Origin: a virus
Direction: 5' to 3' (one strand)
DNA: 40,389 bases
IMG/VR virus record: IMGVR_UViG_3300034198_023065
Coordinates: 1-40,389 of that record
Shown: positions 1-37,356 of the stretch, in pieces
How positions within the stretch are numbered: position 1 is the stretch's first letter
How the letters are laid out: each line of letters begins with the position of its first letter
Program-made: the position numbers and the translations under genes
Notes under the pieces: model-generated
Seen by the model: only the letters and a program-made list of their open reading frames with translations
Told to the model about the DNA's origin: nothing
Databases searched by the model: none

Positions 1-22
1 AAAACGTAAAAAAGTATAAGCA

Positions 23-277
23 ATGACTGCAAACGCATGGACTGTTACAACAACGCACTTTGATACGACGCGCCGATGGGGCGCTAGGTTTGAATGGATG
101 GGTACGGGCTGTATTTTGCATATCGGTGTATCTACCGCGCCAGCCATGCGGCTCTGCTTGTTCGGCTGCGGTATTTGGTTTGGTCGTATTCCGCCAAAGC
201 CGAAGGTGCAGGTGTTAAGCACAAAGACTGTGACGCCCGGCGGTGACTACTCTAGCGGCGCGCTGGTGACAAAATGA
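23..277 (+). CDS. Hypothetical protein, 84 aa
   Basis: Small unrecognised protein. The middle (about residues 24-60) is rich in Gly, Cys, Trp and hydrophobic residues, and the tail is Thr/Ser-rich. I see no signal peptide, clear membrane helix or known motif. The upstream sequence is A-rich with only a weak ribosome binding site. The stop overlaps the next start in an ATGA arrangement (274-277), which implies translational coupling and is the main support for a real gene. Confidence 0.6.
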   Translation: MTANAWTVTTTHFDTTRRWGARFEWMGTGCILHIGVSTAPAMRLCLFGCGIWFGRIPPKPKVQVLSTKTVTPGGDYSSGALVTK

Positions 278-477
278 GCGACATTGTAAAACGTTTGACG
301 TTGTGGGCGGCTAAACAACCACGCGCAGACGGCGCGCAGCTGGCGTTAGAAGCCGCGGCGCACATCGAGGCTTTGCGCCGTGAGGTTCGAACGCAGCGCG
401 CAGAAATTGCTCAGCACGTTAATGTGCGCAACGCGATTCTGGATATGGACACATTACCGGTGAAAGACACGCTGTAA
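274..477 (+). CDS. Hypothetical small helical protein, 67 aa
   Basis: Unrecognised. Residues 1-50 look entirely alpha-helical with Ala, Leu, Arg and Glu in heptad-like spacing, so a short coiled coil or helical dimer is likely. It is coupled to its upstream neighbour by an ATGA overlap, and its stop shares a base with the ATG of the next gene. This tight three-gene chain supports it as coding. Confidence 0.65.
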   Translation: MSDIVKRLTLWAAKQPRADGAQLALEAAAHIEALRREVRTQRAEIAQHVNVRNAILDMDTLPVKDTL

Positions 478-1598
478 TGGCGCTTATTGACTTTGCGGAG
501 TTTGTCCGCCGTTACCGATTAAAAACGTGGCGCGTTAATCGCGTCAGCGTCCGTATGGCGCATGTGTTTGCGCAGCACTTTGTACTGGGTTTGACTAGTG
601 CCAAGACACACGACGCCGTAATCAGCCGGACAAATACGGTGCGGCAGCGCTGGGCCCTCAAATTGAAAGAGTTAGCAATTCGCGCGCTGTGGTTGCCAGT
701 GGCGCGGCTGGCACATCCCGACGACGCTGATTTTGATTTCAAAAAGTTTCGGCTGTCGTTTCAGCGGTGTCTGTTCTGCCGTCCGACGTATATGTTTTTT
801 CGTTGGAAAAAAGATGTGGCGTTGCGGCCGTGTAACTGGGCGCACATCTGTCCGTTTTGCTACGCGCGTATCAGTACGGCGCAGTATCGTGACGTTAAAA
901 ACAAATTACGGGCGCTGGGACGTCACAATAAAGACACTAAGCTTATTGTCACTTGCCGCGTTGCCACTCGATTTATCGCCGCGCCTGAATGGGACCCGCG
1001 CGTTGGCTGTGGGCTGGACGTGGTAAAGCAGTACGAGCGCTTAGTGTGGGGCGAGCTGCAGCGCGAGCGCAACGCATACAACAAGCAGACAAAGCAGCTC
1101 GGGCGTAAAACGATGGGTTCGATGTGGCGGTTGGCTGTTGTTCCACAGGACAATGGCTGGCTGATCGAGGCCCGGCAGTTTTTCTTACACGCCCCAAAAA
1201 CAAAGCTGCCGTGTGTTCGTGTTCGCGGGAGCCGGGTAACGTATATCAAGTCACTCAAAGTCGCCGCGTGTTACGAACAGCCTGATACAGAGTTTTTCTA
1301 TCTGTTCGGCGAGTTCAACAAATATCCAATGCCGCTGCTAGACGGCTACGATGAGCTTGTCGCTGCTTACTTGCGTGCCGTACACGGTATGCGACTACTG
1401 GCCGGAACCGGTATTCTGCGCGCTGTAGGTCGCGGACTTGTAGACTCGCAGAAACGAAAGGGCGACGATGCCAAGACCAAAACGCAGTCACCTGAGCGAT
1501 CGGCAGCGGCAGAGGCGCGAATTGCGCAGGCGCAAGATCGCGCACGCGGACCAGCCATGGCTGCAGAGGTTGGAGTATCTGTGCGCGACTCTTTTTAA
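477..1598 (+). CDS. Cysteine-rich protein, possibly Rep-like (rolling-circle initiator relative)
   Basis: A 373-aa basic protein. Two cysteine pairs (RCLFC near residue 97 and CNWAHICPFC near 117-126) are followed by an Arg/Lys-rich helix and a beta-strand ending in VTC. This order resembles the zinc-binding N-terminus of rolling-circle Rep proteins. The HUH metal motif expected after the later strand (about residues 225-245) is not present: the matching stretch reads GWLIEARQFFLHA. It could therefore be an inactive Rep-like DNA-binding protein or an unrelated zinc protein. The last 44 codons are Ala/Arg-rich and overlap the next gene by 131 bases in another frame. Coding is likely; the Rep relationship is inference. 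Confidence 0.7.
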   Translation: MALIDFAEFVRRYRLKTWRVNRVSVRMAHVFAQHFVLGLTSAKTHDAVISRTNTVRQRWALKLKELAIRALWLPVARLAHPDDADFDFKKFRLSFQRCLFCRPTYMFFRWKKDVALRPCNWAHICPFCYARISTAQYRDVKNKLRALGRHNKDTKLIVTCRVATRFIAAPEWDPRVGCGLDVVKQYERLVWGELQRERNAYNKQTKQLGRKTMGSMWRLAVVPQDNGWLIEARQFFLHAPKTKLPCVRVRGSRVTYIKSLKVAACYEQPDTEFFYLFGEFNKYPMPLLDGYDELVAAYLRAVHGMRLLAGTGILRAVGRGLVDSQKRKGDDAKTKTQSPERSAAAEARIAQAQDRARGPAMAAEVGVSVRDSF

Positions 1599-2685
1599 TA
1601 ACAATGTGCCGTCGTTTGCGCGCGCCATTGAACTAGAATCAACGCATCTTGGCAAAGTATTCAAGCGGCAGTACGCGGTGTCTGCGCAACTGCTGGCGCA
1701 GATCCTCAGTCACACGCATGTCAATGCTGACTGGCTCTTGTGGGGCAGCGGACCGATGCTGCGCACGCCGACCACTGAACATCCCGGCGCGCTTGTATTA
1801 CCCCAACGCTTAAACAGCGCGTTCCCTGTTTTCGACACCCTTCGAGCGGCGACACCGCCGTGTGACGCCATGCCGCCAGAGATTGCCGATGCGCTGTGTT
1901 TAATCAAAGAAGTTCACGTCAACGCCGCAAGCCTGATTCACACAGCTCGCGTTGAAAACCAGCCGGTAATGTTATTTATTTCGGCGCCGGCGATTCATTC
2001 TGGCGCGGGTATCGCCGCAGTTGAGCTGCTGCGCAAGAAGTATGTCACGTCTGTTGCCACCACCGGCGCTGGGCTGGTGGCCGATGTGCGCTTGGCAGAG
2101 CGCGGCATGACGCACGACTTGAACTACGTTGCGCGGCTAGCCGCCAATCAGGGTCTTGGTTACGGCGAGGCCGCCGGGCGCTGGGCGTATTCTCCGCGGG
2201 CGACAACGGAGCGCAGCTTGCTGCACTCTGCTTACACGCTGGGTGTTCCCGCCACCGTGCACGTCGAGCTAGGCGAGATGGCTGGGCACATCTATCCTGA
2301 TGGTCCGGGAGCAGAGATCGGCGCCGCGTTTGGTGCTGCGACGTACGTAGACTTTCTCGTGTTTGCGGAGCAGGTACGTCAGCTATGTCAAACACAATGT
2401 GGCGTAGTGTTGTTTATAGGCGACGCTATGCGCGGCCTGCAGTTGTTTCTTCAGGCTCGGTGCGCGCTTTCAGACAGCGAGCGCGCCCCGAATTTTCACG
2501 CTGTCCTTATCGACAGTCACGTTCAACCTTCTTTTGCGTCATATGTGAATAGCCATAACGGCACAGCACACAACATTTTAGGCACTTTCAAAGCGAACGT
2601 GATGACACTTTTAAACGCTTGTGACGGAGTATTCAGTGGACAAATCACCAAAACCATCAGTTCATGTTCGGGAGTTTCTAGGTAA
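1468..2685 (+). CDS. HTH (XRE/CI-type) fused to deoxyhypusine-synthase-like domain
   Basis: A 405-aa protein. Residues about 30-98 look like a phage-repressor helix-turn-helix domain ending in NADWLLWGSGPML, close to the WLLtGeGPM ending common in CI-type repressors. Residues about 150-385 match, by eye, the NAD-dependent deoxyhypusine-synthase-like/LOR-SDH Rossmann superfamily. Segments seen are PVMLFISAPAIHSGAG, a TTGAGLVADV glycine turn, GLGYGEAAGRW, GVPATVHVELGE, GAEIGAAFGAATYVDF and GVVLFIGDA. The eukaryotic catalytic lysine region is not conserved, so deoxyhypusine synthesis on a protein is doubtful. The ATG at 1468 has AAAGGG upstream; a TTG at 1570 is a weaker alternative. It might sense NAD or a polyamine to control transcription (inference). 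Confidence 0.75.
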   Translation: MPRPKRSHLSDRQRQRRELRRRKIAHADQPWLQRLEYLCATLFNNNVPSFARAIELESTHLGKVFKRQYAVSAQLLAQILSHTHVNADWLLWGSGPMLRTPTTEHPGALVLPQRLNSAFPVFDTLRAATPPCDAMPPEIADALCLIKEVHVNAASLIHTARVENQPVMLFISAPAIHSGAGIAAVELLRKKYVTSVATTGAGLVADVRLAERGMTHDLNYVARLAANQGLGYGEAAGRWAYSPRATTERSLLHSAYTLGVPATVHVELGEMAGHIYPDGPGAEIGAAFGAATYVDFLVFAEQVRQLCQTQCGVVLFIGDAMRGLQLFLQARCALSDSERAPNFHAVLIDSHVQPSFASYVNSHNGTAHNILGTFKANVMTLLNACDGVFSGQITKTISSCSGVSR

Positions 2686-3781
2686 ATTTCGCACAACGGA
2701 CGACCTTGGGCAGTTGCGGCTACTGGCCTGCACGCTCGAATTGTTTCGCCAGTCCTGCACGCCGAAGAAAGATCCGGCGTTCTTTAAAGCGCTTTGGCAG
2801 TTTGCTCAAGTTTCGGGCAACATCAACTGGGGCGCAGTACCTTTTTCAATTACGCAGGCGGCTCTTTCGCGCGGTATCACAGTCGCAAAACAATACGGCG
2901 CCACTGATCAAACGGCGCCGGCAATTGTTAGCGCGGCGCTCGTTCTGTTCGCCGATCTGATCGAGAACGGGCTGGCTGATGCGGACGTGCCGGCTCAAGA
3001 TATCTTTGATGCCGTAATCGCAGAGGTCGCGGAGTCCCCAAAAAATCCGCTAATTGTGCACCCGGTTGCGCCTGAGATTTACAACGAGCGCATGCTGTCT
3101 CGGGTGTTCGCTCCGGCTCAGTTCACCGACACAATGGCATCTGCGTTGTCGGCTAGCCTTGTCAACTTTCGTGACAAGCTGCCCAGTGGCGAGCTAGGCC
3201 CGGCGTATCGTGGCATCTCGTTCGACAACGGCACCAACACACATTTTGTCTTTTTGGAGACAGGCGAGTTCTTTCAGGTCAGGCCGCGCAACTCGCCGGC
3301 AATCACCGGCACAAACACGGCTGAAGACTACGCGGCTATTTCTCCGGCGCTGCTGGCGTACATAAACATCGCCGCGCGGCATCTTGAGATCGCGGCAGTC
3401 ATCAGCGAAGAGCAGCGCAAGCAAATTGAGCGTGCTGGGTATCTTGGTGAGTTTACAAAGCCCGTACATTGGGCTTTTGTGCCGCGTGAAGATGTGGCGT
3501 CGCTGGAGCGCGTTATTGACGGCGGCAAAGAAGCCGCTAGGCTGGGAATCACTGGCGCTACAGGGCCGCATGGCGCGTCTGTGCAAGTGCCTGTCCCCGG
3601 TACAGATTATGTTATCTCACTCGACGCTTCGGTTTCGTCAACCGGGCCCTATGTCGTAGCGACACTTTTGCACTCTGGCCGCGTAGTCATGCGGCTGGAA
3701 CGCCCAAGGCAATTCTCTGCGCGCGGGGTGTACCTGTTCCCGCTCACCGACTGCGCTGTTTCATTGACCGTTATTTATTAA
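2636..3781 (+). CDS. Hypothetical protein, 381 aa
   Basis: Unrecognised. The GTG at 2636 is preferred because GGAG lies seven bases upstream; a GTG at 2621 would add five codons. Either start overlaps the end of the HTH-fusion gene (to 2685), so the two are probably translated together. The N-terminal 270 residues are mainly helical. The C-terminal 120 residues, after a short GITGATGPHGA collagen-like stretch, look beta-rich, as in a small receptor-like or structural domain. No catalytic motif is recognised. The close link to the fusion gene suggests a shared role, but nothing in the sequence defines it. Confidence 0.75.
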   Translation: MDKSPKPSVHVREFLGKFRTTDDLGQLRLLACTLELFRQSCTPKKDPAFFKALWQFAQVSGNINWGAVPFSITQAALSRGITVAKQYGATDQTAPAIVSAALVLFADLIENGLADADVPAQDIFDAVIAEVAESPKNPLIVHPVAPEIYNERMLSRVFAPAQFTDTMASALSASLVNFRDKLPSGELGPAYRGISFDNGTNTHFVFLETGEFFQVRPRNSPAITGTNTAEDYAAISPALLAYINIAARHLEIAAVISEEQRKQIERAGYLGEFTKPVHWAFVPREDVASLERVIDGGKEAARLGITGATGPHGASVQVPVPGTDYVISLDASVSSTGPYVVATLLHSGRVVMRLERPRQFSARGVYLFPLTDCAVSLTVIY

Positions 3782-3790
3782 GGCAACACC

Positions 3791-4069
3791 ATGTACAACG
3801 AAAATTTTGACTTCGGCGGGTTTATCGACGACGAGAACCCGTACGAAGAGGACAACGTCGAGGAGGGCTACGAAGAGTATCTGACCGTGGAGGCGTTGCT
3901 GTGCATCAAGTTTGGCGATCAACGCGGGTCAGCAATCTACAAACTGTTGAAAAAGTACGCTCAGCGCGCAGCGGAAGCGGCAGGAGACGGCGGAGATCCG
4001 GGCGTACTGTTTGACGACGATGGCGGCGAGTTTGTCAGCTTCAACGACGTAGCGGCAGGAGAAGAGTAA
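3791..4069 (+). CDS. Small acidic protein, 92 aa
   Basis: Unrecognised and strongly acidic at both ends: the first 35 residues are rich in Asp, Glu and Asn, and the C-terminus is DDDGGE-like. A helical centre (about 35-65) contains a short basic run, YKLLKKYAQR. Acidic phage proteins of this size are often DNA mimics or partner-binding factors, but this one has no identifying feature. It starts 10 bases after the previous gene and ends a run of tightly packed genes before a non-coding stretch. Confidence 0.75.
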   Translation: MYNENFDFGGFIDDENPYEEDNVEEGYEEYLTVEALLCIKFGDQRGSAIYKLLKKYAQRAAEAAGDGGDPGVLFDDDGGEFVSFNDVAAGEE

Positions 4070-4240
4070 ATACACGGGAGGGCGAGCCGGCGTCCCGTTT
4101 CCGCCACAAAGCCGTTGCAATCATCGACGGCCCGGCACCCAAACCGTGAGTGGGTCATAACCACGAGCTGGCGACGCTTGTCATGACGGTATCCGAGGTG
4201 GGCGCCAGAAGATCGTAAATGAATGGATTCAATGCGCGGT
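4070..4240 (+). other. Non-coding stretch with a hairpin, upstream of tRNA-Gln
   Basis: No convincing gene in 170 bases. An imperfect hairpin is visible, with ACGGGA (4074-4079) pairing with TCCCGT (4093-4098) around a GC-rich loop that can pair further. No T-run follows, so it is not a standard terminator. The frame of the preceding gene stays open for 38 codons after its TAA, without a start codon of its own except a late TTG. It could be a leader or processing region for the tRNA transcript. Confidence 0.35.
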
Positions 4241-4311
4241 TGCCCGATGGTGTAACGGTAGCACAAGAGATTTTGGTTCTCTTTGTCTAGGTTCGAATCC
4301 TAGTCGGGCAT
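4241..4311 (+). tRNA. tRNA-Gln (anticodon UUG)
   Basis: Complete cloverleaf. The acceptor TGCCCGA (4241-4247) pairs with TCGGGCA (4304-4310). The D-arm is 4250-4264. The anticodon stem AGAGA/TCTCT encloses TTTTGGT with anticodon TTG at 4273-4275. The T-stem CTAGG/CCTAG encloses TTCGAAT. The U1-A72 pair is typical of bacterial glutamine tRNAs. The base after the acceptor stem is T, and CCA is not encoded, so host CCA addition is needed. It would read CAA codons in phage messages. Confidence 0.93.
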
Positions 4312-4334
4312 TGGTTTTAAACATGGAGGTTTTT

Positions 4335-4958
4335 TTGCTAGAGGCACAAACTGACGCTGCAATTCTGAAATTTGTGGCGCAAAACTACAAACGATTAAAG
4401 CGGGAGTGTGCTATTGCGCAGCAACAAACACAGATTCATTGCAGAAAATCTAACAACGCAAAAATACAGCGTACAAAAACCGCCGCGCGACAAAACCAGA
4501 CTCATTTTAATCGTGAAAAATACGCAAAATCTTTTGTGGGCCGATGCGCGGCGCAATTAGGGTGCGGGCATACAAAAATTGTTCGCGCTAAAAAACTTAT
4601 TGAAACGTTGCAACAGAAAAAAATTACGCGCGAAGTTGTTATCAAAATTATGCGTGGACAGGCTTCTTTTCGTGACGTAATTTACGGCGCTGGTTGTGTG
4701 TATTTGTTGGCCGCAGGCAACGTCATCAAAATTGGTTGCACAAAATTAGCGGCGGCTGAACGTGTTGCGCGCATTAAACCGGACACCGCTGCCAGCGGCG
4801 GCGACGCCACATTGCGGTTAATTGGATATGTAAAAACTAACGATCCGCACGCGCTTGAGCTTATGTTGCATCAACAATATAAAAATCAACGCGTACGCGG
4901 CGAATGGTTTAATTTAACAGATGACGATATTGCCGCAATTTTGACTATTAAACAGTGA
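4335..4958 (+). CDS. T5orf172/MUG113-type GIY-YIG-like domain protein
   Basis: About 207 aa. The C-terminal half (from about residue 120) shows the T5orf172/MUG113 pattern: CVYLLAAGNVIKIGCT, an Arg-containing helix, LRLIGYVKTNDPHALELMLHQQY and a terminal GEWFNLT. This family belongs to the GIY-YIG nuclease superfamily. The N-terminal half is very basic and helical and probably binds DNA. The TTG at 4335 is chosen because GGAGG (4325-4329) sits five bases upstream; an in-frame ATG at 4323 lacks a ribosome binding site. The gene is visibly AT-richer than its neighbours and starts just after a tRNA, which suggests a mobile or homing-type acquisition. Nuclease activity is not proven by the motif. 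Confidence 0.8.
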   Translation: MLEAQTDAAILKFVAQNYKRLKRECAIAQQQTQIHCRKSNNAKIQRTKTAARQNQTHFNREKYAKSFVGRCAAQLGCGHTKIVRAKKLIETLQQKKITREVVIKIMRGQASFRDVIYGAGCVYLLAAGNVIKIGCTKLAAAERVARIKPDTAASGGDATLRLIGYVKTNDPHALELMLHQQYKNQRVRGEWFNLTDDDIAAILTIKQ

Positions 4959-4974
4959 GTTTTAGGAGCTTTTC

Positions 4975-5241
4975 ATGGCTGATCGCTTTCAACTTGAGAC
5001 GGATATCACAAACCTCTACAACATCGCCGACGATATTGATCTGGTGGTAGAGGCGATCTTAGAGCGCGACATGGATACGGATGCTGTCGCTAATGCGTTG
5101 CTTGGTATTTCGACAATGACAAAACTGCGCGTTGATAAGGCTTTTGATAGCTATAAAGCGGCGTTCAAGCTTGACGAGTTCAAACCAAGCAATTCGGACG
5201 ACGACACGACTACGCGCGTAGAACACGGCGTTTACAATTGA
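4975..5241 (+). CDS. Hypothetical acidic helical protein, 88 aa
   Basis: Unrecognised. The first 70 residues appear helical and acidic, with a DDIDLVVEAILERDMDTDAV stretch; the tail is polar (SNSDDDTTTR). A clear TAGGAG ribosome binding site lies upstream of the ATG. It sits between the GIY-YIG-like gene and the second tRNA. Base composition returns to that of the main genome, so it does not appear to belong to the AT-rich insert. Confidence 0.75.
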   Translation: MADRFQLETDITNLYNIADDIDLVVEAILERDMDTDAVANALLGISTMTKLRVDKAFDSYKAAFKLDEFKPSNSDDDTTTRVEHGVYN

Positions 5242-5252
5242 CTATTTTCTTG

Positions 5253-5282
5253 CCCGGCGGCACAATGAGGGCTGCCGCCGGG
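5253..5282 (+). other. Perfect hairpin overlapping the tRNA(CAU) acceptor strand
   Basis: CCCGGCGGCA (5253-5262) is the exact reverse complement of TGCCGCCGGG (5273-5282), giving a 10-bp GC-rich stem with a 10-base loop. Its 3' arm contains all seven bases of the tRNA 5' acceptor strand (5276-5282), so hairpin and tRNA cannot form at once in the precursor. No T-run follows, which argues against a simple terminator. Confidence 0.7.
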
Positions 5283-5351
5283 TAGAGGAGTCTGGTCGTC
5301 CTCACTAGCCTCATAAGCTAGGGATCGTGAGTTCAAATCTCACCCCGGCTA
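5276..5351 (+). tRNA. tRNA with CAU anticodon (Met- or Ile2-type, initiator-like 1:72 mismatch)
   Basis: Complete 76-base cloverleaf. The acceptor CGCCGGG (5276-5282) faces CCCGGCT (5344-5350) with an unpaired C1-U72. The D-stem is GAGG/CCTC, and the anticodon stem CTAGC/GCTAG has loop CTCATAA with CAT at 5312-5314. The T-stem GTGAG/CTCAC encloses TTCAAAT. Discriminator A; CCA not encoded. The 1:72 mismatch and the T-loop resemble bacterial initiator tRNA, but the three G-C pairs of the initiator anticodon stem are missing. Elongator Met, lysidine-type Ile (AUA) or an initiator variant are all possible. Confidence 0.9.
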
Positions 5352-5382
5352 TTCGGAGGCTGACGCTAGCTACGGAGTGTTT

Positions 5383-5625
5383 ATGACAGGAGCTTATTTG
5401 CGCGTTGAGCGCGACGGTGAATGGCACAATATAGAAGTTGAGCATCTTACGGAAGAGGAGCTAAAGGCAAAGTTTTTAACGCGTTCGCCAGAAGAGTTGG
5501 TGGGCTGGTTAAACATGACTTGTTCATTCTTGCGCAGGCTGCAACCGCTCCTCGAAAGTCTCGAACGGGACGGTATAATTCAGCGCGCAGGCGCCGCAGA
5601 TACGGATGACGCGCCGGCTGAGTAA
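5383..5625 (+). CDS. Hypothetical protein, 80 aa
   Basis: Unrecognised. The ATG at 5383 is chosen because CGGAG ends five bases upstream; a GTG two codons earlier overlaps that site. A short beta-strand start (YLRVERDGEWHNIEVEHL) is followed by helices with acidic and leucine-rich faces (LTEEELKAKFL, LVGWLNMTCSFLRRLQPLLESL). The layout suits a small regulatory or partner-binding protein. It follows the tRNA by 31 bases and precedes an unknown gene in the same direction. Confidence 0.75.
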   Translation: MTGAYLRVERDGEWHNIEVEHLTEEELKAKFLTRSPEELVGWLNMTCSFLRRLQPLLESLERDGIIQRAGAADTDDAPAE

Positions 5626-5659
5626 TTGTTAACAACGTGCGTGTGATCAAGGCTGCCGC

Positions 5660-6280
5660 ATGTTCAATCCAAACAACATATCTAAATCAGAACAGCAGTT
5701 TATTCGGACGTACGTCGCGGCGATGAAGCGCGACTACCATCTGCTGTGGTCGGTTCTCGATCTGATGAACCCGACGCATCTGGGCGTCAAAGAGATTGTT
5801 GTGGCTGCTCGGCTGGCCAAAGAATTGCAGCGGTCGCAGGCAGACTTTGACGCTGAGTTGTTGGCGCTGCAGAAAAAGCACAGACTGAAACACAAATCAT
5901 TTAGTCCGCCCGCGCCTACTACGGAAGATTTGGCGGAGCTTTTCACCCTGTCGTTTTTCAAAGTGATTACCACAACGCCCAAGGGCAAAAAGAAAAACGA
6001 CGGGTGGTTCAGCGGCGAGCCAGAGTCGTGGAAAGAGATGGCGCATACCATCCAGTCCATTGATGTAAACACGCTGCCAAAAATAATCGGGTCGTACATT
6101 GCGACGTTGATAAAACTGTTTAAGCCGTTTGACTACACGCCGGGAATGTCCGATGTCCCGGTCAATCCTTATTGGCAGCTACCGCACGGTACAAAAAACA
6201 ACAGCAAACTGTACAACGAAGAAGAGTATTTTGAAGACAATGAAGACGTTGATTACGAAAACGAGGACGACAAAGACTAG
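5660..6280 (+). CDS. Hypothetical protein with acidic tail, 206 aa
   Basis: Unrecognised. The first 170 residues look helical, with a basic linker around KKHRLKHKSF and a GKKKNDGW loop. The last 30 residues are almost purely Asp, Glu, Asn and Tyr. Such tails are common in phage proteins that bind basic partners or mimic DNA. It lies nine bases upstream of the SbcD-like nuclease and is probably cotranscribed with it, which makes a recombination-accessory role conceivable, though unproven. Confidence 0.8.
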   Translation: MFNPNNISKSEQQFIRTYVAAMKRDYHLLWSVLDLMNPTHLGVKEIVVAARLAKELQRSQADFDAELLALQKKHRLKHKSFSPPAPTTEDLAELFTLSFFKVITTTPKGKKKNDGWFSGEPESWKEMAHTIQSIDVNTLPKIIGSYIATLIKLFKPFDYTPGMSDVPVNPYWQLPHGTKNNSKLYNEEEYFEDNEDVDYENEDDKD

Positions 6281-6289
6281 GAGCGGTGT

Positions 6290-7477
6290 GTGAGACCTCT
6301 TTTTGTGTTTACAGCCGACCTGCATCTTGAGGACGGCGCATGGTCTACGCGTCCCGGTATCTACGGCGACGCGTATTACAGTTTTAAGCAGATCATAGAT
6401 TACTGCATTCGGCACCGCTTACCGCTGATTCTCGGCGGCGATGTTCTTGAGAAAAAAAGCAATGCCGCACGCCCGATTGCAAAACTGTGCGAAGGGCTCA
6501 CAGAAATGCAGCACGAAGAATTAGAAGTCTTCTACATTCAGGGTAATCACGAGTATGACCGTAATGCTCCGTGGCTGAGCGTGCATCCGTGGCCTATACA
6601 TATTCACAAAGTGCCGTACAACATTCGCGGCGCGCAAGTATACGGGCTTGACTGGCTGCCACGCGGAGAGATTCAGGCAGCGTTTAAAGAAGTACCGTCT
6701 AATACTGATGTCTTGATCGTGCATCAGGTATGGAAAGATTTTATGGGCAACGTCGGCCGCACCGAGTGCGAGTTGACTGACGTTCATCACGTGCGCACGG
6801 TACTAGCCGGCGATTTCCACGTAACAAAGACCGTAGAAAGTCAGAACGCGCAGGGGCAGCCTATTAAGATGCTGTCGCCCGGCTCGATCTGCATGCAGGA
6901 CTGCGGCGAGGATCCGTCAAAGTTTTTCTTTGTAGTCGGTCAGCGTACAGACGGCATCGACGGATTTGAGTTTGCGCCTGTTCCGCTCAAGACGCGGCGG
7001 TTTTTGGACTATCGCGTCGAAGATCAAGAACTACTCGACAATCTTTGCGCAGAGTGGTTAGTTCGCGATATTAGCGCCGTTTGCTCGGAAGCTACACAAG
7101 CTGCGCATCCGACAGAAATTATTAAGCCGATCGTGCGCATGAAGTTCGATAAGCAGCTGCCCGACGCCTACATCCGGTTGGTCACGGCAGTTGGCGACAC
7201 AGCGCATGTGTTCTGTGAGGCGCTGACCAACAAGTATGACGCCGACAGGCGCACAGGCACCAGAGACGGCGCCAAGAACGATTTGCTGTCCGCGCTTGGC
7301 GACCTGCTGGGTGATGGTACAGACGCCTACAAGTTGGCTGCGGCGTTACTCGCAGCCGACGACGCAAACAAAGAGCTTGATGTACAGTTTTCAAAATACA
7401 TGACGGGAGAACCTAACGATGCAGCTCTTGCGACTGGAAGTGAAGAACTGGGTACACCACCGCTATCGAGTGTGTGA
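6290..7477 (+). CDS. sbcD: SbcD/Mre11-like nuclease subunit (T4 gp47 type)
   Basis: A 395-aa calcineurin-like metallophosphoesterase. All phosphoesterase motifs are visible: DLH (residues 10-12), GGD (49-51), GNHEYD (85-90), VHQ (144-146) and GDFH (174-177), which together bind two metal ions. In family members this subunit is an exonuclease and endonuclease that works with the Rad50-like ATPase on DNA ends, feeding recombination-dependent replication. The start is GTG with GGAG upstream. The gene overlaps the ATPase gene by 59 bases, as expected for an obligate complex. The residues after about 320 are less conserved and probably form the partner-binding and tail region. Confidence 0.93.
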   Translation: MRPLFVFTADLHLEDGAWSTRPGIYGDAYYSFKQIIDYCIRHRLPLILGGDVLEKKSNAARPIAKLCEGLTEMQHEELEVFYIQGNHEYDRNAPWLSVHPWPIHIHKVPYNIRGAQVYGLDWLPRGEIQAAFKEVPSNTDVLIVHQVWKDFMGNVGRTECELTDVHHVRTVLAGDFHVTKTVESQNAQGQPIKMLSPGSICMQDCGEDPSKFFFVVGQRTDGIDGFEFAPVPLKTRRFLDYRVEDQELLDNLCAEWLVRDISAVCSEATQAAHPTEIIKPIVRMKFDKQLPDAYIRLVTAVGDTAHVFCEALTNKYDADRRTGTRDGAKNDLLSALGDLLGDGTDAYKLAAALLAADDANKELDVQFSKYMTGEPNDAALATGSEELGTPPLSSV

Positions 7478-9572
7478 GTTTACGCGCGGATTGGTGGCGA
7501 TTCTCGGCGAAAACGGTTCGGGCAAGAGCAGCTTGTTCGGGGCGATTCGGTGGCTGCTCACCGGCGAGAATCCAAATTTTGGCGTAAAGTCCGATAACAT
7601 TTCGCAATACGCTCGCGAAGGTGAACCTGCGTACGCCACGCTAGAGTTTGAGCACAACGGGCATATCGCTGTTGTGACGCGGCACCTACTGCCGGAGAAA
7701 GAGCAATCCACGCTGCTCGTGGACGGCAAAGAAATAGGCCGCGGCGACAAGAGCGTAACCGCCGGCATCGAAAAACTGCTGGGTGTTGACGCCAAATTTA
7801 TCAGCCGGTTTATCATCGTCTCGCAGACCGAGATTTTTTCGTTTATCGACGACAATCAGACCGACACTGATAAGTTTTTTCAGCGGCTGTTTAACACGTC
7901 GCGGGCGGACAAGTGCCAAGACGCAATCGGCAAGTCTTTGGCCAAACTGAGCATCCCAGAGATCGTGCATACCGCTGATGAACTGGAAGCACAGGCCAAC
8001 GACGCGGCAAAGCGTGCGCAGGCGCTGGCGGAGCAAATCGCCCAGCTGCCAAACCCAGATAACATTCTGGCGCTCATGCGAGCCGACCAGAAGACAATTC
8101 AGCAGTGGGACGCCAGAGAGCGCGGCGCTAGTGAGCTGTCCAAGCTGGAAAAACAGCTTGAGCAGCAACAGCAAGCACTTGAAACACTTGTAAACTCTTC
8201 TGCCCAGTATGACGCAGATCTGCTGGCGTTGACGCAGGCGGCTGACGGGCAAGAATCAGCTCACGCTGCTGCCCGGGGCGCGCTTGGGCACTGGGCAAGC
8301 TACAAGAGCGTTGCGAAAGCCAAAGAAAATTTTCAGGCTACGCGCGCACAACTCGCCGCTGAATGCGAGAAAGATCAGCAGCCCGAAAAGCCGGGTTTGC
8401 CGACTGCTGAAGAAATGCGGCGCGATCAGCATTCGCGTGAACAACGTATCAAAGAAACCAAACGATTTATTGATATGTTTTCGGCAGACGGCTGCGCCGA
8501 GTGCCCCACATGTCATACGCCGTCGTCGCAGTTGGCGGCGCAGGTTGAGCAGTACAAGCTTGATCTCGTGAAAATGGAAGAAGACTTAGTGGAGTGGAAA
8601 AACGCCGCGAGTCGCCAGACATTCAAAGAAGGCGTGTGGCAGGACTGGGAAAAGCGGCAAAAAGCGCGCGAAGCTAAAGAACAGCAGCTTGACGCAGCTG
8701 AAAAAGACTTACTCGCTGTAAAGCCGCCCGAATCAAGCGAGTACGAGCTGCAGCAGGTTGTTGTAGATTATGAGGAGTTTCAGCGCGTCAAGAAAGAGAT
8801 TGAGCCGTTGGCTCAGAAAGCTCGTGAAGAGCGGGCGCAGGTTAGTGGCTCCATCGAAGCGCTCAGGTCACGCAAGAAGCAGCTCGAAGAAGAGTTGGCG
8901 GAGATATATGTCACGCATGCTGACGCGCATCTGGCCCAGACGCGGTTGCAGCAGTTACAGGAGCAGCTAAAAACGCGCACGGGGTTAGTAGACCAGCGGG
9001 CGCAGATTCTGTTTGAGAAGAAGCGGTTTGACGAGCAGCGCGCAGAAGTACGGGCGCAGGAAGTTAGGGCCGGTAAGCTGCGCCGTTGGTCTGGACTGGC
9101 AGAGACCGCGCGCGAGGCTTTGAAGAATGCGCCGCGACTCGTAGCGCAGCGCAACCTTCAGCGGCTCGAAACAGCTATTAATGAGTTGCTGCAGGTGTTT
9201 CGTGTAAACTTTGTTATTAAGGTAGCCACGGATGGAACACCAACATTTATCGCCGAGTTCTTTGACGGACGACGACAAGTCGCTCAACGACTGTCAGTCG
9301 GGCAAAAAACTGTCTTGGCTCTTGCGTTTCGAGTCGCCGTCAACGCCATGTTTGCCGAAGAAATTGGTTTACTCGCGCTGGACGAGCCGACTGCGTCTTT
9401 GGATCAGCCGCGTATTCAGGCGTTAGCGCCAGTTCTAGAAAAGTTACGCGAGTTATCGACAGCAAAAGGGTTGCAGTGTTTGCTTGTCACGCACGCAATC
9501 AATCTTTCGCATCTGTTTGAATCAGCAATTGAATTAGAGGCACCGGAGTTACGGCATGTACAGCGTAGTTGA
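7419..9572 (+). CDS. sbcC: SbcC/Rad50-like SMC-type ATPase (T4 gp46 type)
   Basis: A 717-aa protein with split ATPase halves around a long coiled coil. Walker A is GENGSGKSS at residues 30-38. A zinc-hook segment with cysteines in a CxxCxxC pattern lies near 358-365 between two Glu/Gln/Lys-rich coiled-coil arms. The signature LSVGQK lies near 622, Walker B LLALDEP near 650 and an H-loop VTHA near 690. At about 700 residues it is shorter than bacterial SbcC (about 1000) and nearer the phage versions. It pairs with the nuclease subunit encoded just upstream and would hold and process DNA ends. The ATG follows GGAGAAC. Confidence 0.94.
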   Translation: MQLLRLEVKNWVHHRYRVCEFTRGLVAILGENGSGKSSLFGAIRWLLTGENPNFGVKSDNISQYAREGEPAYATLEFEHNGHIAVVTRHLLPEKEQSTLLVDGKEIGRGDKSVTAGIEKLLGVDAKFISRFIIVSQTEIFSFIDDNQTDTDKFFQRLFNTSRADKCQDAIGKSLAKLSIPEIVHTADELEAQANDAAKRAQALAEQIAQLPNPDNILALMRADQKTIQQWDARERGASELSKLEKQLEQQQQALETLVNSSAQYDADLLALTQAADGQESAHAAARGALGHWASYKSVAKAKENFQATRAQLAAECEKDQQPEKPGLPTAEEMRRDQHSREQRIKETKRFIDMFSADGCAECPTCHTPSSQLAAQVEQYKLDLVKMEEDLVEWKNAASRQTFKEGVWQDWEKRQKAREAKEQQLDAAEKDLLAVKPPESSEYELQQVVVDYEEFQRVKKEIEPLAQKAREERAQVSGSIEALRSRKKQLEEELAEIYVTHADAHLAQTRLQQLQEQLKTRTGLVDQRAQILFEKKRFDEQRAEVRAQEVRAGKLRRWSGLAETAREALKNAPRLVAQRNLQRLETAINELLQVFRVNFVIKVATDGTPTFIAEFFDGRRQVAQRLSVGQKTVLALAFRVAVNAMFAEEIGLLALDEPTASLDQPRIQALAPVLEKLRELSTAKGLQCLLVTHAINLSHLFESAIELEAPELRHVQRS

Positions 9573-16011: not shown

Positions 16012-19000
16012 ATGACACAGGGTATTTCGCTCACGCATCGTCTGACACAGACGCTGTATGACCCGAACACAGAAGATTTTACGGCTGCGGCATACCCGTT
16101 CATTCCGCTTACGGAACCGGGTATGCCGCCAGCCGGTCCAGACTTTATTGCGCACGCCGTCGTTCTCGGCGACGAGATTGACGAAGCTAGCGCCAAGAAA
16201 AAGAAGGCTGTACCTGTCGGTACTCACCTGACAAACCTCTATCGCAACGCGCTGTATCGGCCCGACTTTCATTTGCCGATTTCGCACAAATCTTCTAAAG
16301 ACTTGATTCCGGTTCCGTTTCTTCCCGGGCATCGCTGGGGGAAGCGCGGGGCTGCTGTAGAGACATATGGCCCGTGGCATAAAGCCAAGGTGATGGTCGT
16401 CGGCAAACTCCCCGGCTATTACGAGATGGAGAGTTTGAACGCGACGGCTGGCCCGGCGATGAACTCGCTTGCTGATATCTTTGAAGAATGCGGTATCGGC
16501 CCGGAAGCGTATGAGGATTGGTACGTAACATTTGCGTGCAAGTTTGCGCCGCCGATGGAAATTACGGCTGTACCGGCCGCGTGGATTAAAAACTGCGCAA
16601 TTCTGCTGGAGCAAGAAATTCGCATCGTCCAGCCGGAGTTTATTCTGTGCCTCGGCAACGAGGCGACAAAAGCAGTCATGCGTACGACGGGCGCCATCAC
16701 CGGCCTCGCCGGCCGCATCCTCGACGTCTCGTCCGTAGACACAGACGGCAATCCCCGGACGATGAAAGCGCTGTCGGTAATGCACCCAGCGTTCGTCGTG
16801 CGTAAGCCAGAAGTGACCGAAGACTTCATCGGACAGATCCGTCGATTTAAAGCCCTTATTCACGACGAGATTCTAGATGAGGAAGCCGTTGACCATGCTG
16901 ACGTGTATACAGAAGCCGCGTTGGCCGAAATTGTTGACGAGATGGTTAACGATCCTGATCCAAACGCCAACATCATCGCAATCGACTGTGAGTGGCACGG
17001 GGAGTATCCGACGGAAGAGGGCGCTTACTTACGCACTGTTCAGATATCAAATAAAGACAAGTGGGCGCGCACAATTGTTTTGCGGCATCAGGGCGGCGCA
17101 GAAGCGTTTCAGCCAAATCTGGACGCTGCGCGCAGACTACTCACGCGGCTACTCAAAAGCACGCCCGAAAGAAACGTTCGTGTGGGTGGGCACTTTTTCC
17201 GTGCTGACTTGCCATGGCTTTTTGATTTTGGCGTAGATGTACGCCCGGAGTACGCTCCCGCCGAAGATCCCGATGACCGCATGCACGGCGGTTGGGATAC
17301 AAGTCTCATGTACCACGCCGTCAACGAGTGCGCCCGCTACGGCCTCGACGAGTGTTCCATGCGATTCACAGCTGCTCCCACTTACTGGGAACCGCTTGAT
17401 CACTGGAAAAAGAAATACCGCACTGATAACAAATTAAAAGCCAGTGAGATTGGTGGTTACGGTGAATGCCCGGCGCACATTCTCCATCCATACGCCTCAT
17501 ATGACGTCGACGTAACTCGACGAATCATGATGAGGTTTTACGGCACCAACGGTAAAGACGGCCTTATTGGGCGGTCTAGCACCGGTCACGATTGCTGGTT
17601 GCCGTACTGGACTGCGCACAACTCGTCGTTGGCATTTCTAGAAATGGAAATGACCGGTCTTGAAATCGACCGCAACCGCGCGGACGAGCTGACCACGCTG
17701 TTTATGAACACGCAGGAACGACTGCTGGCCGAGATTCGCGAAGAGTTACAGTGGCCAGCGTTTAACCCAAAGTCGCAGCCCCAATTGGCGATAGCGCTTT
17801 TCGGCCGCGACTTTGCCGACCGATACACGAACTCTCCGCCGATTCCAGCCGAAGCCCAGACTCTCGATCTGCGTCCAGTGAAGACAACCGGTAAGCGCCC
17901 TGTGCTGTGGAACGAGTTGTCTTATCGCGGCGTTAATCCCGAGACTGCGACGCCCAGCACTGATAAAGAAAGTCTTGGTATTCTCGGGCACATGAACTCG
18001 ACTGCGGCTAAAATCCGTGACTATAAATTCATCAGTCAGGTGCTGCAGTCAGTGTTGCGCAAGCCCGCTGAAACAGAAGACGGAGAATACGAACTCGATG
18101 AGAACGGTAATTACACGTATGAAAAAGGTCTTGTCGGGTGCGTCCACTCTGATGGCAAAGTCCGTACGCACATGTTTCAAACCAAGGAAACAGGCCGAGC
18201 AAGCAGTAGCCGACCTCCCCTACAGAACCTTAGTTCGCGACGGGAAGACGACTACAAGCGCATCCTCGGAAAAGACAAGTACCAGCATCCCGTCCGATCA
18301 ATTCTTCGAGTACCAAAGGGCTGCGTCGGTATCGAAACGGACCTCACTGGTGCGGAATTGGCGGTCCTCGCGTGGCTGAGTCAAGATAAAAATATGATCG
18401 AGCACGTTCGGCGTAATCTTCTCCCAGAGGATCACCCGGACCACTATGACATCCATAGTCAGCAGGCAGTCAAGACATTCCGGCTTAGCGGAGTTACGCC
18501 CACGAAACAGGGCATGGCTGACGCTGGTGTAAAGGGCTTGCGTGTGGCAGCCAAAAACGTGAACTTCGGTATTCCGTATGGCCGCGGCGCAGAAGCTCTA
18601 GCGCGGCAGTGCAAAGAGGAAGGTCACGACGTCACGGCCGATCAGTGCCAAGCGATGATCGACGCCTACTTCCAGTCTTATCCCGGCACGAAGTCGTTTC
18701 TGGCCGAGTGCCGTATGCGGTCGCAAGATCCGGGATGGCTGGTAGGTCCGTACGGTCGGTTTCGCCGGTTCATGCCGACGAAGGACCGCGCTGTACGCGG
18801 CGAACAAGAACGGCAGGCGCAGAACTTCCCGATTCAAGGCGGAGTTGCTGACGCCGTGTCGATTGCGCTTTACAACTTCTACAAGTACCGTGAAGAACAC
18901 TCGGATATTGATTACAAAATTGCGCTGCAGATTCATGACGCGATTGTGTTAATTGTGCCGCTAGAGCACGCTGAGCGTTTGTACAAAGAAATTATTCCGG

Positions 19001-19179
19001 CGTGCATGATTGATGGTGTGCCGTTCTGGCCGCACAGGCTCGACGGCACCAAAATCGAAGTGGCTGCGCCTTACCACTTTGGTATGAGCCGAGACGTGTT
19101 TTTCCACTGGGGAGAGAACCTAAAACCCGAGAAATCTAGGGGTTTAGGTGTCGATTGGTTTTGTGACGAGAAGGGCTAG
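16012..19179 (+). CDS. Family A DNA polymerase with 3'-5' exonuclease and N-terminal UDG-like domain
   Basis: A 1055-aa fusion. Residues about 115-290 resemble family 4 uracil-DNA glycosylase/SPO1 polymerase-related proteins: VMVVGKLPGYYE, CLGNEATKAVM and MHPAFVVR. The glycosylase GEAPG motif reads GKLPG, and the N-terminal iron-sulfur CxxC is absent, so repair activity is uncertain. A DEDDy-type exonuclease follows: DCE near 325, HFFRADLPWL near 395, YDVDV near 497. Polymerase motif A is DLTGAELAVLAWL near 780, motif B RVAAKNVNFGIPYG near 845 and motif C IHDA near 975. Motif C keeps the catalytic Asp but replaces the usual Glu with Ala. This would be the main replicase. Confidence 0.93.
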   Translation: MTQGISLTHRLTQTLYDPNTEDFTAAAYPFIPLTEPGMPPAGPDFIAHAVVLGDEIDEASAKKKKAVPVGTHLTNLYRNALYRPDFHLPISHKSSKDLIPVPFLPGHRWGKRGAAVETYGPWHKAKVMVVGKLPGYYEMESLNATAGPAMNSLADIFEECGIGPEAYEDWYVTFACKFAPPMEITAVPAAWIKNCAILLEQEIRIVQPEFILCLGNEATKAVMRTTGAITGLAGRILDVSSVDTDGNPRTMKALSVMHPAFVVRKPEVTEDFIGQIRRFKALIHDEILDEEAVDHADVYTEAALAEIVDEMVNDPDPNANIIAIDCEWHGEYPTEEGAYLRTVQISNKDKWARTIVLRHQGGAEAFQPNLDAARRLLTRLLKSTPERNVRVGGHFFRADLPWLFDFGVDVRPEYAPAEDPDDRMHGGWDTSLMYHAVNECARYGLDECSMRFTAAPTYWEPLDHWKKKYRTDNKLKASEIGGYGECPAHILHPYASYDVDVTRRIMMRFYGTNGKDGLIGRSSTGHDCWLPYWTAHNSSLAFLEMEMTGLEIDRNRADELTTLFMNTQERLLAEIREELQWPAFNPKSQPQLAIALFGRDFADRYTNSPPIPAEAQTLDLRPVKTTGKRPVLWNELSYRGVNPETATPSTDKESLGILGHMNSTAAKIRDYKFISQVLQSVLRKPAETEDGEYELDENGNYTYEKGLVGCVHSDGKVRTHMFQTKETGRASSSRPPLQNLSSRREDDYKRILGKDKYQHPVRSILRVPKGCVGIETDLTGAELAVLAWLSQDKNMIEHVRRNLLPEDHPDHYDIHSQQAVKTFRLSGVTPTKQGMADAGVKGLRVAAKNVNFGIPYGRGAEALARQCKEEGHDVTADQCQAMIDAYFQSYPGTKSFLAECRMRSQDPGWLVGPYGRFRRFMPTKDRAVRGEQERQAQNFPIQGGVADAVSIALYNFYKYREEHSDIDYKIALQIHDAIVLIVPLEHAERLYKEIIPACMIDGVPFWPHRLDGTKIEVAAPYHFGMSRDVFFHWGENLKPEKSRGLGVDWFCDEKG

Positions 19180-26400: not shown

Positions 26401-27099
26401 ATGGCGGATGGAGCCGCTTCTGTTTGTATCTGCGTCTTATTTTACGGCGCAGAAAACAAACACTTTCAACTTGCGCAACGCGTGCTTAACGGCCCGATGC
26501 GCGAACTGGCTACACAAAACGTCTCTTTTCGTTTTGGGTGCAATGCCGTAGGGCCAGACACGACTCAATTTCTTCTCCAGCAGGTTGCTGATCATTTTCA
26601 CTCAGCAACAATTTTTCACAGCACTAAAAACCTGATGAAGTACCCGATGATGCGGCGTATGTTTTATGAGCCGCTGATCACAGAACCGATTACGATGTGG
26701 TTTGACCACGATTCGTATCTTGAGCCAGCAGATGACATTCACAACTGGTTTGCGCGTGTAACAACCAACGTAAACGGGTGCAACCTCGTCGGGTCGGTCG
26801 AACGGGCGAAACTCCCAGATGAGCAGTTGCGGTGGATGCAACAGCAGCCGTGGTTCAATCCCGCGTACGACAAGACTTATCTGCCGTATGTAATTGGCGG
26901 ATGGTGGGCAATCAAAACAGAGCTGTTGTACCAGTTCGACTTTCCGCCGGTAGGATTTCAACAGAAGTATGGCGAACGCGTTCTTGGCGCAGCATTCAAG
27001 CATCAAGACATTCGTTTTTGTCATTTTCGTGAGGGCGTGAAAATCAACGTCAACGATTCCGGCGTAGAAACTGCAGAACCAAGGACTATGACGGCATGA
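26401..27099 (+). CDS. Glycosyltransferase, GT-A fold (GT2-like)
   Basis: A 232-aa protein. It starts with the beta-strand CICVLFYGAE typical of GT2 enzymes, contains a DxD-type metal/sugar-nucleotide motif in MWFDHDSYL near 102-104, and has a GGWWAIKTELL acceptor-side segment near 165-175. It would transfer a sugar from a nucleotide-sugar donor; the acceptor could be DNA bases, a virion protein or a host surface sugar. CGGAG precedes the ATG, and the next gene overlaps in an ATGA arrangement. No membrane helix is present, so it acts in the cytoplasm. Confidence 0.82.
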   Translation: MADGAASVCICVLFYGAENKHFQLAQRVLNGPMRELATQNVSFRFGCNAVGPDTTQFLLQQVADHFHSATIFHSTKNLMKYPMMRRMFYEPLITEPITMWFDHDSYLEPADDIHNWFARVTTNVNGCNLVGSVERAKLPDEQLRWMQQQPWFNPAYDKTYLPYVIGGWWAIKTELLYQFDFPPVGFQQKYGERVLGAAFKHQDIRFCHFREGVKINVNDSGVETAEPRTMTA

Positions 27100-36309: not shown

Positions 36310-36312
36310 CAC

Positions 36313-37356
36313 ATGCGCATTGGTATCTATACACACTACGCTCACTGTGACGAAGCGTACTTTGCTGTGCGGCTGGCTGATTTTTTACGTACACAAGGCG
36401 TCGAGTACACCATTTACTCTGACGCATCGCCGGCGAAGCTTTGCACGCACCACGACCGCATTGTCATTCATAAAAAGAAATGCCCGTTTACTCACTGGGC
36501 AAAAACGTGCCACACAATTATTTACACCCAACCGCCGCGGCTTGACACGTTGAATTTTATTCGGCGTTTTGGAATACGCACAATTATCGTTCCGATGTGG
36601 CAAGAGCTTATGCGGCCGTTTCGTAAAGCCATGCAGCGCGTTGACCACGTAATTGCTATGAACTCAGAAGCGCGCGAGCTTTTTGCCAAAGTCTATAAAT
36701 TAAAGAACGTCACGTACATTCCATTTGACGTCGGTTTGCCAACCACAAAAAAAACTAAGCCGGTGAACAGTCGGCAGGTAAAGATATTTTTACCGTGGTT
36801 TGACCGGAACGCTCGCTGCGCGAACAGCCAGTTTCTCGGCCTGCTCGGCTACCTGCTTGAACGTATGCCAGACGCGCAGCTCACGGTAGCGATTACGTCT
36901 TGCCGGTTTGCCCCGTCTGTGGCCAAGTTTTTTCAAACGCTCGGTCGCAAAACAAACGGGCGCGTAAAACTGGTGCGCAACACGCCGCTCGCCAAACGCC
37001 CGGCTATGTACACGGCGCACGATTTGACGATACTGCCCGCTGAGTGCGACAACTACGGGTTTTGTAGTCTGACGTCTATCAATTGCGGGACACCAGTACT
37101 TTCATTTGCCCTGTCTCCGCAGATTGACTTCGTGTATCAAGATGCGAATGGCGTGCTTGTAAAAACGCGAGTAGACTACGACGAAAATGGCGTTCCTCAC
37201 GCAGCGCCAGATTATGAACATCTGATCACTGTCCTGCAGACATTTATTGCAGAGCCCGTGCATATCGACAACCTCAACCGCCGGGTGAACTACAACTTAT
37301 CAACGCGCCGCAAATCGTTTGAGCTAGGCTGGCAAACGCTACTCAAACTTGTGTGA
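36313..37356 (+). CDS. Glycosyltransferase, GT-B fold (GT4-like)
   Basis: A 347-aa protein. The N-terminal strand MRIGIYTHYAHCDEAYFAVRLADFL is followed near residue 240-265 by LPAECDNYGFCSLTSINCGTPVL, which resembles the GT4 donor-binding ExxxxGF...E/S region and the following GTPVL. It would transfer a sugar from a nucleotide sugar; DNA, virion protein or host glycan are all possible acceptors. It starts three bases after the portal stop, an unusual neighbour. The gene is somewhat AT-richer than the portal, possibly a later arrival. Confidence 0.8.
   Translation: MRIGIYTHYAHCDEAYFAVRLADFLRTQGVEYTIYSDASPAKLCTHHDRIVIHKKKCPFTHWAKTCHTIIYTQPPRLDTLNFIRRFGIRTIIVPMWQELMRPFRKAMQRVDHVIAMNSEARELFAKVYKLKNVTYIPFDVGLPTTKKTKPVNSRQVKIFLPWFDRNARCANSQFLGLLGYLLERMPDAQLTVAITSCRFAPSVAKFFQTLGRKTNGRVKLVRNTPLAKRPAMYTAHDLTILPAECDNYGFCSLTSINCGTPVLSFALSPQIDFVYQDANGVLVKTRVDYDENGVPHAAPDYEHLITVLQTFIAEPVHIDNLNRRVNYNLSTRRKSFELGWQTLLKLV

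Follow-up and report, generated by a model that had tools for sequence, protein, structure and literature searches.

The C-terminal part of lambda CI is a LexA-type peptidase domain. The recruitment of enzymes as sensors is widely held, and to our knowledge there are few cases in which the enzyme state and the regulator state can be compared in related genomes. In BzdR, a shikimate-kinase-like domain has lost its activity and is now the effector-binding part (PMC3602430), and engineering in lambda has produced a CI-BzdR chimera that responds to benzoyl-CoA (PMC4985591). Here we describe a gene on a 40,389-nucleotide (nt) stretch of viral DNA (the whole of IMG/VR record IMGVR_UViG_3300034198_023065; hereafter the window) in which a predicted helix-turn-helix (HTH) head is joined to a domain of the deoxyhypusine synthase (DHS)/LOR-SDH fold. 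Our preferred reading, with a probability of about 0.5, is that it encodes a phage transcription factor that joins a CI-type HTH to a retired GSU2086-family enzyme, the latter now serving in sensing or oligomerisation.

Under this reading, the head would bind operators in the phage genome, perhaps within its own region, or in the host genome, and the DHS-fold domain would supply oligomerisation. The domain would most likely still bind a small molecule, either NAD(H) or a sugar phosphate/nucleotide sugar, which would switch DNA binding as benzoyl-CoA does for BzdR, and the ancestral GSU2086 reaction would no longer be performed. The DNA binding, the ligand and the targets of the fusion are all predicted here.

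An intact fusion gene in large phages

Our results confirmed that the fusion is real as one gene. An intact open reading frame (ORF) runs from an ATG at 1468 to a stop ending at 2685, with AAAGGG shortly 5′ of the ATG (Table 1). Nine further IMG/VR records, obtained by the search of phage genomes that a preliminary description of this DNA had proposed, carry the full-length fusion at 63–99% identity to the window protein; seven came from scans with the whole protein and with an alignment, and two more (L129, L130) from scans with the head alone. The ten records, the window included, contain near copies (the window, L001 and L002; L003 and L004). In seven relatives the fusion start is kept, with an overlap of 131 or 107 nt with the upstream ORF. 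Since six of the nine other fusion records are contigs of 194–205 kb, we regard the 40-kb window as a fragment of a large phage.

The preliminary description had also considered that two separate genes might have been joined by error, and this is ruled out because the nine other records carry the same full-length fusion. We found no point in favour of an assembly or sequencing artefact or of a decaying pseudogene, and with ten intact full-length records and low ratios of nonsynonymous to synonymous change (omega; see below) explanations of this sort have next to no weight. The fusion had no match among 50,697 cultured-phage records (tblastn, E 0.01), neither structure model had a match in BFVD at E ≤0.001, and a phmmer search of PDB with the fusion protein (P0001) found nothing, the head alone giving one chance-level match (E 1.5). 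No regulator of this kind was found among the papers listed in the literature searches, which agrees with the earlier statement that no described phage transcription factor with this fold was known.

Fold and family of the C-terminal domain

Residues ~117–398 have the DHS/LOR-SDH fold, for which the evidence is strong. The AlphaFold model of the protein (47-sequence alignment) had an overall predicted local distance difference test score (pLDDT) of 69, with ten-residue blocks at 62–95 over 141–390 except for 271–280 (43); elsewhere the blocks were at 41–53 for 111–140, 55–70 for 31–80 and 31–44 for 81–110. The N-terminal border at ~117 comes from the sequence alignment only (F122-D123), as the model is poor there, and the structural alignment begins at ~142. 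When compared with solved structures, the domain model matched AgrE (Z 19.3, 206 residues, root-mean-square deviation 3.3), LOR/SDH 3c2q (Z 18.4) and human DHS (Z 17.6), and Foldseek gave a best E of 2e-6 with modest template modelling (TM) scores. An unfused cellular control (L019), modelled at pLDDT 94, matched the same fold families (Z 19).

Sequence profiles matched over ~60–100 positions (ArgZ/AgrE, E 2e-4 over ~70 positions; 3c2q, 0.003; DHS 8put, 0.042). In a single hhalign comparison, an alignment of GSU2086 proteins plus the phage domains matched an archaeal DHS profile, built from 14 of 16 DHS loci (L109 and L120 left out), over 286 columns (probability 94, E 1e-7); the phage rows alone matched it over only 45 columns (probability 47, E 2e-4). 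The fused domain and an archaeal DHS (L104) have in common a TTGAxLVxD stretch, a loop that we assume to be NAD-binding in DHS.

Judged by sequence matches, the nearest family of the fused domain is GSU2086 and not polyamine DHS. The domain matched NCBIfam NF052581 (GSU2086) at E 2e-28 and 99.9 bits, which does not reach the curated cut-off of 250, and the fusions L129, L130 and L001 scored 91.6–102.5 bits; of the unfused viral copies, L100 scored over the cut-off (311.5 bits) and L103 below it (238.4). Pfam DS gave 13.4 bits (E 0.048) on the window, below its cut-off of 27, and 15.8 bits in a search of the record G001. We therefore reject membership of the polyamine-linked DHS family, and the connection to polyamines that the preliminary description had drawn is not supported, the nearest family adjoining HldE/GmhA-like sugar-phosphate genes.

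Our cellular set comprised the best 80 of at least 415 confirmed relatives, which came from Planctomycetota, Acidobacteriota, Chloroflexota, Thermodesulfobacteriota and others. A PfkB relative was a neighbour at 45 of these 80 loci, a SIS protein at 34 and a HAD protein at 35, with at least one of the three at 66 (phmmer E 1e-5; contig ends truncate some of the loci, and the counts have no random-locus control). Four PfkB neighbours of ~510 aa are HldE-like and three SIS neighbours are GmhA-like, all under curated cut-offs. In Geobacter, GSU2086 sits between hldE and gmhA and has an electrode-growth score of −3.2, as compared with −3.1 and −3.7 (PMC5585712). Because of these HldE/GmhA-like sugar-phosphate neighbour genes, the GSU2086 family is assigned to heptose-type sugar-phosphate biology. 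No HTH extension was present among the 80 cellular loci, as judged from where the start codon lies (in L056 no ATG was seen close to the position expected for it).

At four loci (L021 4279–5796, L022 4504–6027, L049 4322–5848 and L045 4545–6071) the HldE-like neighbour of the GSU2086 gene has its adenylyltransferase domain first and its kinase domain second, opposite to the order in the NF008454 HldE model. Ornatilinea apprima has a second GSU2086 copy (L098, 5845–7527) with a C-terminal fusion to a SIS-type stretch, which hints at a sugar phosphate as the GSU2086 substrate. The NCBIfam text labels TIGR00300 as a nickel-pincer-nucleotide-dependent ornithine cyclodeaminase.

The probable helix-turn-helix head

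The head (~residues 30–99) is the weaker-supported half of the fusion, and moderate evidence identifies it as a CI-like HTH. When the 86-aa head segments of four phage sequences were searched against PHROG, phrog_9710 was the best match of all four (E 6e-6 to 3e-5), and all four also matched phrog_2328, a transcriptional repressor (E 5e-4 to 0.013). A further family, phrog_3642 (HTH DNA-binding), was matched by the L006 head at E 4e-4 and by the other heads at 0.014 to 0.3; with the whole window protein, E was 7e-4 for phrog_9710 and 0.011 for phrog_2328. The AlphaFold model has helices at 30–43, 47–53, 58–65 and 73–81, and BFVD structure matches for the head were weak, to cro/C1 or repressor HTH proteins (probability up to 0.97, E 0.5–1.0). 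The tail NADWLLWGSGPML is seen in the sequence but is not modelled, given a pLDDT of 31–44 at residues 81–100. Together with the fold of the domain (Z 17–19) and the single ORF, the PHROG matches support the earlier proposal that an HTH and a DHS/LOR-SDH fold share one gene.

All ten fusions have the head with a WLxWGxGxM tail, which in our view resembles a CI-type tail. This retention is at odds with an explanation in which an inactive homologue would poison or imitate a GSU2086/heptose enzyme complex of the host, with a minor role for the HTH. That explanation would draw on the homology of the domain to host sugar-operon genes, and on inactive DHS paralogues of trypanosomatids that act through heterotetramers (PMC3663545, PMC7581365). 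We consider it very improbable.

Residues lost from the fused domain

To score residue retention, we took as near-invariant those columns at least 95% conserved over 83 cellular rows (81 ORFs from the 80 loci, plus two plasmid copies), which gave 61 columns, 26 polar and 35 non-polar. Seven fusions were scored, L002 being omitted as a near copy of L001, and L129 and L130 not being in the set. Each of the seven kept 8 of the 26 polar columns and 17–20 of the 35 non-polar ones. The lowest cellular row, counted by leave-one-out, kept 21 of 28 polar columns, and the unfused viral copy L100 kept 25/26. Among the substitutions (L018 residue to window residue) are R19 to M135, H67 to P174, N92 to T199, H98 to A205, D186 to M271, E233 to Q325 and K237 to Q329. 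A segment of ~19 residues (~110–128 in L018 numbering), with five columns invariant in the 83 cellular rows, is absent from the fusions, and no lysine of the fused domain aligns to the DHS SWGK site, so that the earlier remark on the missing catalytic lysine of eukaryotic DHS stands. The domain keeps many family glycines. Taken together, the residues suggest that it no longer performs the ancestral GSU2086 reaction.

The preliminary description had raised an enzyme tethered to DNA, and it is possible to imagine a bifunctional protein whose domain has taken up an altered reaction. Such a protein would be in keeping with the strong purifying selection acting on the core of the domain, and with the retention of D206, N219, E234, S250, H265, D295 and D349 in the seven aligned fusion rows. 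However, this becomes less likely because substitution or deletion has affected 18 of the 26 near-invariant polar columns; the segment with the five invariant columns is lost as well, and no PfkB/HldE-type partner was found in the nine other fusion records (which may be incomplete; the window was not searched). On balance we find a catalytic role improbable.

Collinear phages with an unfused copy

Unfused GSU2086 copies occur in phages that are collinear with the window. In the record G034 (locus L100), order and orientation are as in the window: a relative of the upstream ORF, an unfused GSU2086 gene, a 222-aa ORF, an HldE-type gene, a Metallophos gene and an SMC/Rad50-type gene. In total, 19 plus-strand ORFs of G034 match window ORFs in the same order (E 1e-5). 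The upstream-ORF relative is distant (E 6e-5, against the L001 copy only), and Pfam finds nothing in the L100 protein that corresponds to the Metallophos one. The HldE-type kinase/adenylyltransferase matches NF008454 at E 6e-98 with 329 bits, below the cut-off of 521, and Pfam PfkB and CTP_transf_like over cut-off. A second record, G035, is collinear with the window from the Metallophos gene to 36310–37353 and has a 485-aa PfkB gene upstream of the Metallophos gene; its unfused GSU2086 copy is located elsewhere and keeps 19/26 polar residues. PfkB is present in both unfused viral records searched. There was no SIS_2 gene in any of six records, so even G034 and G035 show no whole heptose route. 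A search for the head as a stand-alone ORF (≥70 aa, phmmer E ≤1) found none in the whole of G034 or in the pieces of G001 and G035 examined.

A quick tree set the seven fusions beside the viral copies, within the GSU2086 family (support 88); the stem that bears them measures 5.0 changes per column, and long-branch effects are possible. The alignments A2 and A3 drew on 37 of the 81 cellular ORFs, with L100 and L101 added. The simplest inference is a direction from enzyme to fusion. We offer only tentatively, as a scenario that could well be wrong, that within one phage lineage an ancestor had a working GSU2086 enzyme and an HldE-type partner, and that in the fusion clade the enzyme acquired a CI-type head while catalysis and the partner were lost, so that the protein now couples transcription of the phage (or the host) to a metabolite of the cell, NAD(H) or a heptose/sugar phosphate, possibly via the conserved cis element in the 3′ part of its own gene.

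Both states appear to exist in collinear phages, unfused in G034 and G035 and fused in the fusion clade, which makes it possible to test in what order the events took place and what the ancestral ligand was. The finding also highlights GSU2086 itself, a widespread sugar-operon protein of unassigned activity, with an electrode-growth phenotype in Geobacter like those of its neighbours hldE and gmhA (PMC5585712). We note that the large phage record G034 (L100, 347–9234) has phage-borne sugar-nucleotide genes, a nucleotidyltransferase (PF00483) and a GDP-mannose 4,6-dehydratase/epimerase-type gene (PF16363), together with an M19 dipeptidase, the GSU2086 protein over the family cut-off and the HldE-type kinase/adenylyltransferase.

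Selection and a conserved 3′ stretch

Omega was 0.05–0.23 for head residues 45–100 (beyond the overlap with the upstream ORF), 0.04–0.09 for the domain core (151–330), 0.16–0.41 for the linker and 0.35–1.07 for the N-terminal tail in the overlap; for residues 331–398 it was 0.10–0.42, where synonymous change is itself suppressed. The low omega of the core argues that the domain is not decaying. Across residues 100–148, 12 of 49 positions are invariant in the ten fusions. At larger distance the head changes faster than the core, a pattern that shifts in operator specificity would be predicted to produce. The nonsynonymous difference (pN) was 0.01–0.02 in the glycine-rich stretches 217–240 and 265–300, among the lowest of the gene (five sequences), and equally low only at 373–396, which borders the overlap with the next ORF.

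Towards the 3′ end of the gene, codons are conserved beyond what they encode. At positions with the same residue in the seven fusions, the codon was identical at 23/43 within codons 301–384, as compared with 9/110 within codons 45–300 (p 5e-9). Codons 301–384 lie before the start of the downstream ORF, and synonymous divergence climbs again within the downstream gene; the GC content is ~0.48 in the last 318 nt of the fusion gene and 0.60 in the first 900. The frames inspected for 2428–2767 did not reveal a conserved overlapping one. Of 76 predicted RNA pairs three had changed on both sides (covariation term 0.03), which gives no support for a structure, a promoter/terminator scan did no better than shuffles, and Rfam over 1–6000 returned only two tRNAs above the gathering score. 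The stretch is probably an embedded cis element of some sort, and an embedded promoter/operator is the simplest guess.

Several observations weigh against a sensor-type transcription factor. With regard to the head, Pfam had no match in the window, and its HTH models remained below cut-off on other heads (L006, iHD-CE 0.002 and HTH_31 0.009; L005, HTH_3 and TraI_C 0.11; L099, HTH_35 0.14); the best PHROG match, phrog_9710, carries the annotation "unknown function", and the head was modelled at low confidence (block pLDDT 55–70). The separate searches of the two parts that had been proposed at the outset came out strongly for the fold of the domain and moderately, through PHROG but not Pfam, for the head. 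With regard to the domain, the loss of activity is deduced from residues, and the loss of residues is not tied to fusion alone, because an unfused viral protein (the copies L101–L103, one protein) is itself partly depleted (19/26 polar columns). No integrase (PF00589) or PF07022 match was found in six records (possibly incomplete; the window was not among them), so a classical lysogeny role is unsupported, and we rejected a classical lysogeny repressor as a candidate. In addition, of the positions switched from the near-invariant residue of the family, 12/24 are conserved among the ten fusions, as compared with 103/192 of the other domain positions (p 0.83); since the switched positions thus show no extra conservation, they do not indicate a specific new pocket.

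This last result would fit a DNA-binding protein in which the DHS-fold domain is a mere oligomerisation scaffold with no effector. The loss of near-invariant polar residues would be consistent with the same explanation, and DHS is homotetrameric in human and worm (PMC7581365). Nonetheless, the high conservation of the glycine-rich stretches 217–240 and 265–300 is not obviously needed by a pure scaffold, and we regard a scaffold without ligand as rather unlikely, though deserving of attention. A fused domain that still binds a small molecule remains the reading we prefer.

Other genes of the window

The upstream ORF (477–1598) has paired Cys motifs (CLFC, CPFC) and is weakly related to the equivalently placed ORF in L100; as a guess, it may be a replication-type protein. 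Other gene products of the window include a PolA that also carries a uracil-DNA glycosylase domain, as well as a RecA-like protein and a thymidylate kinase. The first of these (16012–19179) is a 1055-aa protein in which a domain of the uracil-DNA glycosylase superfamily and a family A DNA polymerase are joined, and its cultured-phage matches were all at <60% identity, those listed being at 21–27%. Glycosyltransferase-family matches below cut-off were obtained for 36313–37356, which has a homologue in G035, and 26401–27099 is glycosyltransferase-like by eye with no Pfam match, with homologues in G034 and G035.

Table 1 Features of the window discussed in the text, with the evidence for each.
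Feature	Coordinates	Strand	Evidence or remark
Upstream ORF, 373 aa, no Pfam or PHROG family	477–1598	+	3′ end overlaps fusion start by 131 nt
Fusion gene, HTH head + linker + GSU2086/DHS-fold domain, 405 aa	1468–2685	+	ORF, family matches, model, relatives
Probable CI/XRE-like helix-turn-helix, residues 30–99 including tail NADWLLWGSGPML	1555–1764	+	PHROG matches, low-confidence model helices
Variable linker, ~residues 100–116	1765–1815	+	Alignment of ten fusions; pLDDT <55
DHS/LOR-SDH-fold domain related to GSU2086, ~residues 117–398, near-invariant polar residues depleted	1816–2661	+	Profile, structure, alignment
Suppressed-synonymous stretch, probable embedded cis element	2368–2619	+	Codon identity among relatives
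Downstream ORF, up to 386 aa, no Pfam or PHROG family	2621–3781	+	Start overlaps fusion 3′ end
tRNA-Gln	4241–4311		
tRNA-Met	5276–5351		
Metallophosphoesterase, SbcD/Mre11 type (Metallophos just over cut-off; subtype by context)	6290–7477	+	Synteny anchor, G034, 37% identity
SMC/SbcC/Rad50-type ATPase	7419–9572	+	Synteny anchor, G034, 29–31% identity

Comparison with known systems

With the GSU2086 family, the fused domain shares the fold, the overall alignment, many glycines and 8/26 near-invariant polar residues. It differs in its score (99.9 bits against a cut-off of 250), in the N-terminal HTH and in the lost polar residues and segment, and the nine other fusion records, when searched for PfkB, yielded none. 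The domain shares with deoxyhypusine synthase/SpeY the fold (Z ~17) and, with archaeal L104, the TTGAxLVxD stretch, but it is below the Pfam DS cut-off and is without the catalytic lysine site. The closest solved folds are those of the ArgZ/AgrE ornithine cyclodeaminase domain and LOR/SDH 3c2q (Z 18–19), although identity in the structural alignment is 12–15% and the fusion is without a dihydrolase part.

As compared with lambda-type CI and other phage repressors, the fusion shares a probable HTH head (phrog_2328 match) with what we take to be a CI-type tail, whereas its C-terminal part has a DHS fold in place of a LexA-type peptidase and no integrase was found in the six records. The likeness to BzdR-type regulators lies in a predicted DNA-binding head, a linker and an enzyme-derived C-terminal domain, whose loss of activity is here deduced from residues; the enzyme fold differs, being DHS/LOR-SDH and not shikimate-kinase-like, and the fusion is phage-borne. 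If it is a regulator, it would be a DHS-fold regulator in phages. Enzyme-derived HTH regulators are already known as a kind, and what is new to us is the DHS fold, the phage setting and the collinear unfused relative.

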